Translations under genes and position numbers: made by a program
Origin: Methanobrevibacter sp.
Lineage (GTDB): Archaea; Methanobacteriota; Methanobacteria; Methanobacteriales; Methanobacteriaceae
Length of the DNA stretch: 64,000 bases
Assembly (NCBI RefSeq): GCF_017406825.1
Contig: NZ_JAFQXT010000011.1
Span: 1 to 64,000, forward strand
Reading direction: 5' to 3'
Shown here: positions 22,698-53,564 of the stretch, piece by piece
How the letters are laid out: each line of letters begins with the position of its first letter
Position numbering within the stretch: position 1 is the first letter of the stretch
Notes under the pieces: generated by a model
Told to the model about the DNA's origin: nothing
Databases searched by the model: none
What the model saw: the letters and a program-made list of their open reading frames with translations, nothing else

Positions 22698-23114
22698 ATG
22701 GCAAGATATGAAATAGCAGCAGTTGTTGCTGAATTTAATTATGACATAACACAGATGATGTTAGAACTCGCTCAAGCAGAAGCAAAAAACAGAGGCTGTG
22801 AAATTACAAAAGTGGTTGCAGTTCCTGGTGTATTCGATATGCCGCTTGTAATTAAAAAATTATTGCAGAAAGGGGAATACGATGCAATCATCACCCTCGG
22901 TGCTGTAATTGAAGGAGCAACCGACCATGATCAAATCGTGGCACAACACGCTTCCCGTAAAATAGCTGATTTAGCACTTGAATACGACACACCAGTAGCC
23001 CTCGGTATTACCGGTCCGGGCATGACAAGAATGGATGCTCACAGACGTGTTAAAAACGCTAAAAGTGCTGTTGAAGCAGCTATCAAGATGTGTGACAGAT
23101 TAAAAGAAATCTAG
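22698..23114 (+). CDS. ribH: 6,7-dimethyl-8-ribityllumazine synthase
   Basis: Condenses 5-amino-6-ribitylamino-uracil with 3,4-dihydroxy-2-butanone 4-phosphate to lumazine, the penultimate riboflavin step. 138 residues from the ATG at 22698 (MARYEIAAVVAEFNYDI). Seen are AEFNYDIT (pyrimidine site), VPGVFDMPLVIKKL, LGAVIEGATDHDQIV with the catalytic His, and GITGPGM. It forms icosahedral or pentameric assemblies in other organisms. It sits with the leu genes and methanogenesis marker 11, far from ribK/ribB, and no FMN riboswitch precedes it. Confidence 0.96.
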   Translation: MARYEIAAVVAEFNYDITQMMLELAQAEAKNRGCEITKVVAVPGVFDMPLVIKKLLQKGEYDAIITLGAVIEGATDHDQIVAQHASRKIADLALEYDTPVALGITGPGMTRMDAHRRVKNAKSAVEAAIKMCDRLKEI

Positions 23115-52276: not shown

Positions 52277-52651
52277 ATGAAAATTGAGGGTGAAGTTACT
52301 ACCGGTTTGGGCAAAGCCGCATTTTTCCTTTCACAGGAATTTTACACAAAAGAGTTCATGAAGAATTTGGGGTTCATCCCGTACCCGGGAACATTGAATG
52401 TTGTCGTCGACGATAAATATTTGGATGAAATCAACGGGATTAAAAATTCCTGTCAAAATTTAATCAAACCGGATGAAGGATTTGGCGCTGTAAAATATAT
52501 CGAAGCTACTTTGAATGATGAAATTAGCGGAGCAATTGTATTTCCGGCCAAAACCACTCATGAAGAAAATTATCTTGAATTCATAGCCGAAAGCAAATTG
52601 CGGGATGAATTGGATCTTGAAGATGGTGACATCGTATTTTTGGAATTTTGA
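52277..52651 (+). CDS. ribK: CTP-dependent riboflavin kinase
   Basis: Archaeal RibK makes FMN from riboflavin using CTP rather than ATP. 124 residues from the ATG at 52277, which has a GAGGTTATT site; an in-frame ATG at 52250 is rejected. The beta-barrel motifs are GEVTTGLGKAAFFLS, YPGTLNVVVD, GFGAVKYIEATLN and GAIVFPAKTTHEE. Upstream 52054-52276 is AT-rich promoter DNA. 48 nt downstream of the stop the FMN riboswitch of ribB begins, so FMN production and FMN sensing are next to each other. Confidence 0.94.
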   Translation: MKIEGEVTTGLGKAAFFLSQEFYTKEFMKNLGFIPYPGTLNVVVDDKYLDEINGIKNSCQNLIKPDEGFGAVKYIEATLNDEISGAIVFPAKTTHEENYLEFIAESKLRDELDLEDGDIVFLEF

Positions 52652-52698
52652 TTTCTACCCAAAAGTATTTTATACATAATGAATATATTTTTTAATAC

Positions 52699-52826
52699 GT
52701 TCTCAGGGCGGGGTGGAATTCCCCACCGGTGGTGATTTTTAATAAAAATAAGTCCACGAGCACGATTGAAGTGTTGATTTGGTGAGATTCCAAAACCGAC
52801 GGTGACAGTCCGGATGGAAGAGAAGT
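52699..52826 (+). promoter_or_regulatory. FMN riboswitch (RFN element) upstream of ribB
   Basis: The conserved core is present in order: AGGGCGGGGTGGAATTCCCC-type P2, ACCGGTGGTGA (P3), AGTCCACGAGC, a short variable arm, TTGGTGAGATTCCAAAACCGAC-type P5/P6 region, GGTGACAGTCCGGATGG, closing with GAGAA. TTCTC (52700-52704) and GAGAA (52820-52824) form P1. This agrees with the bacterial RFN consensus at all the expected places. The expression platform (52827-52880) includes GCCCTG (52849-52854), complementary to CAGGGC (52704-52709), offering an alternative pair. The ribB ribosome site GGAG follows. Control at the level of transcription or translation cannot be told. Confidence 0.93.
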
Positions 52827-52880
52827 AATAGTATTTTAGTTATTTTTAGCCCTGGTTCTAGTAAATAAGGAGACATTACT

Positions 52881-53564
52881 ATGAATCAAGAAACAAACTT
52901 AGATAAAGCTTTAGAAGCTATTAGAAACGGCGAATTCGTTCTAGTTTTCGATGATGATGATAGGGAAGGAGAAGTCGACATGATTATCGCTTCAGAATTC
53001 GTAACCCCCAAATCAATCGCAACAATGAGAAACGATGCTGGCGGTTTAATATGCAATTGTCTACATGCCGATTTTTGCGAAGCCATTCATTTGCCTTTCA
53101 TGGTTGATATCATGAAAGCGGCTACAGAAAAATACCCTGAATTGGCAGAACTCGCTCCAAATGACATTCCATACGACGAAAGGTCATCATTTTCAGTATG
53201 GACAAACCATAGAAAATCCTTCACTGGAGTAACAGACCATGACAGAGCAATGACAATAAGTGAAATGGCCATAATGATGAAGGAAGAAAGATTTGATGAG
53301 TTCGGTGCAACATTCAGGTCACCTGGTCACGTATGTCTTTTAAGAGGAGCAGACGGCCTTGTTAAAAATAGACAGGGACACACAGAAATAGGTCTTGCCT
53401 TATGTGAAATGGCAGGTGTCACTCCTGTTTGTGTAGTTTGTGAAATGATGGATGGTGAAACCGGACAGGCCACATCAGTTGCCGACGCCAGAAAATATGC
53501 TGAAGAGAATGGCTTGATATTGCTTAAAGGCGAAGACATTATCAACGCATATTTGAAAGAATAG
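52881..53564 (+). CDS. ribB: 3,4-dihydroxy-2-butanone 4-phosphate synthase
   Basis: Makes the four-carbon riboflavin precursor from ribulose 5-phosphate. 227 residues: FDDDDREGEVDMIIASEF (metal and substrate site), MRNDAGGLICNCL, SFSVWTNHRKSFTGVTDHDRAMT, FRSPGHVCLLRGADGLVKNRQGHTE (His and Glu ligands) and CEMMDGETGQATSVADARKYA. A single-domain archaeal enzyme without the GTP cyclohydrolase II part. A GGAG site 10 nt upstream. It is expressed under the FMN riboswitch, giving end-product feedback. Confidence 0.96.
   Translation: MNQETNLDKALEAIRNGEFVLVFDDDDREGEVDMIIASEFVTPKSIATMRNDAGGLICNCLHADFCEAIHLPFMVDIMKAATEKYPELAELAPNDIPYDERSSFSVWTNHRKSFTGVTDHDRAMTISEMAIMMKEERFDEFGATFRSPGHVCLLRGADGLVKNRQGHTEIGLALCEMAGVTPVCVVCEMMDGETGQATSVADARKYAEENGLILLKGEDIINAYLKE

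Follow-up and report, generated by a model that had tools for sequence, protein, structure and literature searches.

The locus and its FMN aptamer

In the window (the whole stretch of 64,000 nucleotides that was analysed), a native archaeal-type ribB gene is preceded, on the same strand, by a complete FMN riboswitch aptamer and, upstream of that, by ribK, which encodes a CTP-dependent riboflavin kinase. The features of the locus are as follows.

52277..52651, + strand: ribK, CTP-dependent riboflavin kinase without a DNA-binding domain (PF01982, 116 bits); the ancestral upstream neighbour
52661..52675, + strand: putative core promoter, BRE AAAAGTA and TATA TTTTATAC (from sequence and the spacing of the TATA-like box)
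52694..52829, + strand: FMN riboswitch aptamer (RFN element), complete (RF00050, 110.8 bits, model positions 1-138)
52704..52709, + strand: CAGGGC, last base of P1 and J1/2, putative anti-sequestor partner within the aptamer (the inner pairs are conserved in almost every one of 64 distinct archaeal leaders)
52840..52847, + strand: U-tract (UUAUUUUU), just 5′ of GCCCUG (T runs in archaeal leaders)
52849..52854, + strand: GCCCUG, putative anti-sequestor, complementary to 52704-52709 (found in each of the six genera and also in ribB leaders of proteobacteria)
52853..52864, + strand: 5′ arm of the predicted sequestor hairpin (UGGUUCUAGUAA; paired fraction in archaea 0.90, and no more than 0.52 after sliding by 1-3 nt)
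52867..52872, + strand: Shine-Dalgarno-like AAGGAG in the sequestor loop (from sequence; a GGAG-like motif is kept in most leaders)
52876..52888, + strand: 3′ arm of the predicted sequestor (UUACUAUGAAUCA), which takes in codons 1-3, with the start codon at 52881-52883 (compensatory pair 52860/52880)
52881..53564, + strand: ribB, native archaeal-type DHBP synthase (PF00926, 197 bits; in the native Methanobacteriaceae clade of the RibB tree)

The cmscan match to RF00050 (52694-52829, forward strand) scored 110.8 bits (E 6e-25; gathering score 66.2), spans the complete model with zero non-standard pairs marked, and keeps all the consensus pairs of the aptamer. This is the high Infernal score that a preliminary description of this DNA had proposed as a check, and it bears out the central claim made there, that a complete bacterial-type FMN aptamer heads an archaeal ribB; the coordinates and sequence blocks given there also stand, but the blocks are not split and are simply those of the full canonical aptamer. 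RF00050 is the sole Rfam match at gathering level across the window, and an RF00050 search of the window's genome found no FMN riboswitch besides this copy; ribH (22710-23102), as had been said, has no such leader, with zero RF00050 match. The aptamer ends 51 nt before the start of ribB. The riboswitch class itself is already known, and we infer that the window RNA binds FMN.

In 54 of the 61 leaders of genera g1 and g2 (g1 being the genus of the window), as in 13/15 leaders of genus g9, a TATA-like box stands at -32 ±1 relative to the first base of P1; AAAGTATTTTATA, the exact motif, has a single occurrence in the window. With the spacing from TATA box to start that is usual in archaea, this places the RNA start at P1, and transcription of the window switch would be expected to begin at about 52697-52699, the 5′ end of P1. 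Since ribK lies 5′ of the switch's own TATA box, it is most likely outside the control of the switch.

The ribK gene runs from its ATG at 52277 to a stop at 52649-52651, leaving 42 nt to the start of the RF00050 model and 48 nt to P1, the latter being the gap originally reported. That this adjacency links the making of FMN to its sensing, as the preliminary description proposed, we reject: the tight ribK-ribB pair is the older, ancestral archaeal arrangement, present also in switch-less relatives (with native RibB starts such as MIDDAIKAL or MIKKALEAL), and the switch stays with ribB where ribK is distant. Among 60 g1 genomes, ribK lies less than 150 nt from the switch in 37, 354-3312 nt away in 20 and on another contig in 3, so that it is more than 350 nt off or on another contig in 23. 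Local replacement of the protein regulator RbkR by a riboswitch is likewise rejected, as RibK is standalone phylum-wide, with or without the switch (open frames mostly of 113-185 aa, except for G003, whose frame is fused, and G136, which has a fragment), and is not the kinase fused to a DNA-binding domain by which RbkR is recognised.

Several riboflavin genes elsewhere merit a record. The G003 frame (G003:C120:2300-3700, L129), from the switch-less genus g3, holds ribK and ribB in 356 aa with no stop between them, and is a possible natural RibK-RibB fusion or a sequencing slip. In g6 (L012 and L037; genomes G008 and G006), a bacterial-type ribB with its riboswitch adjoins ribK in divergent orientation. 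A second ribK in a g1 genome (G092:C4:6315-6683), with a score like the g12 type, is probably on a contaminant contig, and a second DMRL-synthase-family gene in the window's own genome (G000:C25:21702-22088, L285) is perhaps an archaeal riboflavin synthase.

Expression platform and alternative folds

The platform of the window reads GCCCTGGTTCTAGTAA ... TTACTATGAATCA, and its arms pair as a hairpin of 12 bp, from which a single U (52882, within the AUG) bulges out. Upstream of it, the complementarity of GCCCTG to CAGGGC, and with it the alternative fold noted earlier, is real, and GCCCUG is found in the window and, with small variants, in all 64 distinct archaeal leaders. Because this pairing hardly varies it yields little covariation evidence, which comes instead from the hairpin, where 90% of cells are paired over the 64 distinct archaeal leaders. 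All 17 distinct bacterial leaders have G-C at the pair 52860/52880, where 49 of the 52 distinct leaders of g1, g2, g6 and g9 have A-U, and the pair 52861/52879 has become U-A or A-U in 9/11 from g12, counts that do not equal independent events since the leaders compared share ancestry. Two-sided changes of this kind are what selection for a helix is expected to leave. The aptamer, the homology of the platform and the covariation of its hairpin are shown by computation. A few members (G037/G042, G101 and some Methanosphaera-like g12 genomes) have a weak hairpin, and two patterns for the 16S 3′ end gave zero matches even in closed genomes, where a masking or pattern problem is probable.

The ensemble energy for the window was -54.9 kcal/mol with P1 enforced and -56.6 kcal/mol with GCCCUG:CAGGGC enforced, and the unconstrained minimum-energy fold is the latter (anti-sequestor) state. 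Such near-equality fits the need of a ligand-driven switch, and a modest gain from binding would be enough to invert the order of the two states. Under a nearest-neighbour model, the expected pairs of the start hairpin fall from 11.8 in the P1-closed state to 8.1 in the anti-sequestor state for the window, and from 12.5 to 6.8 for E. coli; in both, the hairpin persists in the anti-sequestor state, shortened. As it is merely weakened, thermodynamics alone leaves the on/off contrast unexplained, and as it is merely shortened in the model, mutual exclusion must involve stacking, kinetics or an anti-P1 pairing that lies outside the model. The exclusion of the two folds is the weakest part of the proposed mechanism.

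The T run before GCCCTG is 5-8 T long in most archaeal leaders, against 1-2 T in 12/18 bacterial leaders, and follows P1 at a spacing of 8 to about 150 nt across the archaeal leaders. Compared with shuffled tracts, its anti-P1 pairing is above expectation in g9 and in bacteria, but only slightly above in g1. The U-tract could pair with the 3′ strand of P1, act as a pause giving FMN time to bind, or serve as an archaeal termination site.

Distribution and ancestry of leader and gene

RF00050 was found above its cut-off in 93 of the 152 genomes of the phylum, which belong to 6 of the 17 genera of a single family. Among 396 relatives from 204 genera, most of them outside those 152 genomes, the switch was present in 6 genera and no further genera with an FMN riboswitch appeared; four archaeal control genomes gave zero matches. 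The switch is therefore common in Methanobacteriaceae and was not found elsewhere in the sampled relatives, and the earlier view that it is rare in archaea holds across archaea but not within this family. It is nearly universal in g1, and a leader common to Methanobrevibacter-type relatives, another check suggested at the outset, was indeed found; g3, the closest sister genus, and other genera with native ribB are without it. The g1 genomes lacking a match are partly accounted for by leaders cut by a contig edge (G068, G072) and by a decayed leader in G096. In this last genome (L130, ~750-920), the aptamer core and GCCCTG are both degenerated and AAGGAGATATTACTATGAATCA is intact, a natural case of loss of the switch.

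PF00926 scores split RibB into two groups: behind the riboswitch, g6, g9, part of g12 and g16 encode RibB of bacterial type (266-284 bits), while g1 and g2, like every switch-less genus, have the archaeal type (~185-205 bits). In the RibB tree the window protein falls inside the native clade (SH-aLRT 100), beside switch-less g3, and the proteins of g6, g9, g12 and g16 form a clade (SH-aLRT 96) among RibB of the Enterobacterales/Orbaceae and Photobacterium types; two methanogen MAGs apart, the best named-genome matches of the bacterial-type RibB are Enterobacterales, at no more than 71% identity. The leader tree differs, uniting g1/g2, g6, g9 and g12 in one clade (100/99) apart from bacteria and from genome G137, with g12 leaders placed among those of g1 at weak support; a constraint joining all archaeal leaders, G137 included, in one clade gave p-AU 0.19. 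As the window RibB is in the native clade but its leader goes with g6, g9 and g12, the histories of leader and gene differ, and the different ancestries of the two in the window are shown by computation. The preliminary description had missed this, as it had the homology of the platform to that of E. coli ribB. In g1 the leader sits in the ribK-ribB gap and the protein starts MNQE, as do the bacterial-type genes of g6 and g9; the window RibB has the N-terminus common to the transferred gene.

The rpoB tree places g9, g6, g3 and g1 in one clade, with g9 and g6 branching next to g1+g3 (100/99), and g12 apart, and this requires more than one transfer, the trees fixing neither their number nor their order and direction among the archaeal genera. 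Three further cases lie beside this pattern. The Methanosphaera-like g12 genomes G108, G109 and G110 (L156-L158) carry two ribB genes each, a bacterial-type one with the riboswitch and a native one without. In the g2 genome (L024, G001:C201, a 3.6 kb contig), ribB and leader are of g1 type and rpoB places the genome elsewhere, and this may be a contaminant contig. Genome G137 of g16 (L002/L243, G137:C10) has a riboswitch (134 bits) and a ribB that are most like bacterial ones; as its leader groups with bacteria, its switch may represent a separate transfer.

A probable re-use of a bacterial leader, and comparison with known systems

We think it probable that the window holds an FMN riboswitch of bacterial origin, which arrived on a gamma-proteobacterial-type ribB and now represses the native archaeal ribB at high FMN. 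The switch would have entered gut Methanobacteriaceae on that gene, and in g1 the leader, from the aptamer through the platform to the start codon and first codons, would then have come before native ribB inside the old ribK-ribB pair, where it has what appears to be its own archaeal promoter. With FMN bound, P1 would close and leave GCCCUG free, and the hairpin 52853-52864/52876-52888 would shut the AUG into its stem, with the Shine-Dalgarno in the loop, turning translation off; in the FMN-free state GCCCUG would pair with CAGGGC, breaking the aptamer core and weakening the start hairpin, so that translation is on. The OFF logic, the translational level of control and the path of the leader move are what we infer. 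A more ambitious version, which we offer with considerable doubt, is that the bacterial riboswitch, platform and first codons crossed on one gene and captured a non-orthologous native gene, the archaeal promoter and U-tract adding FMN-dependent termination or pausing to the translational switch.

The archaeal version might instead be mainly transcriptional, the U-tract being an FMN-dependent termination or pause site and the start hairpin a remnant or second layer. U-tracts drive archaeal termination, and runs of 5-8 U just 5′ of GCCCUG mark most archaeal leaders and few bacterial ones. E. coli ribB, with its FMN-dependent pausing and Rho termination (PMC5234074), also lends the idea some weight. 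The compensatory change that keeps the hairpin would be needless for a pure terminator, however, no GC-rich hairpin lies 5′ of the U-tract, and the tract is also readable as an anti-P1 strand (though not clearly above shuffled tracts in g1), and we hold mainly transcriptional control to be unlikely. That the window leader is a decayed relic without function is harder still to credit, and is the reading to which we give least weight: decay does occur, as G096 testifies, but there aptamer and GCCCTG decayed together, as expected after loss of function, whereas the window aptamer has every consensus pair and its GCCCUG and hairpin are intact.

As to origin, near-universality in g1 would suit a switch that is old in archaea, inherited vertically and lost in other lineages. 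We consider this very improbable, given that g3 and other native-ribB genera, as well as the other genera of the 396 relatives, are without the switch, that in the four genera whose RibB is of bacterial type it precedes that gene, and that long stretches of the platform, codons 1-3 included, are common to proteobacteria. Rather less improbable, though still doubtful, is that the g1 leader was taken from Methanosphaera-like or other archaeal donors and not from the ancestor's own bacterial-type ribB; the weakly supported position of g12 leaders among those of g1, in spite of the distance of g12 in the rpoB tree, speaks for it. But g9 and g6, the neighbours of g1+g3 in that tree, already have leader and bacterial ribB, which makes an ancestral copy the simpler source.

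If a bacterial leader was re-used in this way, a cis-regulatory RNA with its platform appears to have moved between domains and then been re-used on another gene. Each step would still be visible: sister genera carry the bacterial gene with the switch, some Methanosphaera-like species have ribB of both types, and g1 has the switch on its native gene. The locus offers a way to test directly whether a translational platform from bacteria works with the ribosomes and polymerase of an archaeon, and it is relevant to how one common group of gut-type methanogens controls vitamin B2.

FMN riboswitches in archaea are not new in themselves: an M. ruminantium FMN match is reportedly used as an example in the Rfam/Infernal documentation on genome annotation. 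A closed genome of M. ruminantium type in our set (G019, match 193837-193975) has a leader of the same lineage as the window's; its switch heads a ribB of bacterial type and lies a long way from ribK, whereas that of the window stands before native ribB and beside ribK. A passage of PMC5780412 cites an Infernal study of Methanobrevibacter ruminantium, and a 2007 survey reported only TPP riboswitches outside bacteria (PMC2258182). Our literature search found no paper on the origin, platform or native-gene re-use of the archaeal switch, although one may exist; what seems to be new is the history, a bacterial leader re-used on native archaeal ribB.

Set against the typical RF00050/RFN element, the window is alike in its complete aptamer, consensus pairs and place upstream of a riboflavin gene, and differs in its archaeal host and promoter and in the native archaeal ribB downstream. 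Another close comparison is E. coli ribB, which its FMN riboswitch represses by a sequester loop together with early termination (PMC9885008). A blastn search of the window leader against E. coli gave zero matches, and the homology is visible solely in short conserved blocks and through the covariance model. In those blocks the E. coli leader (L162) has a platform, GCCCTGATTCTGGTAA...TTACCATGAATCAG, like that of the window; it reads GCCCTGATTCTGGTAA ... TTTACCATGAATCAG, likewise in many other gamma-proteobacteria, with a variant in Azospirillum and Telmatospirillum. Window and E. coli ribB share the GCCCTG anti-sequestor, the start-codon hairpin and the ATGAATCA start. As Rho is a bacterial factor, the termination route of E. 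coli should not apply in an archaeon, and the window differs further in an A-U for a G-C pair of the hairpin, in the U-tract before GCCCTG, in its TATA-box promoter and in a spacer from aptamer to GCCCTG of 19 nt, compared with 60 in E. coli.
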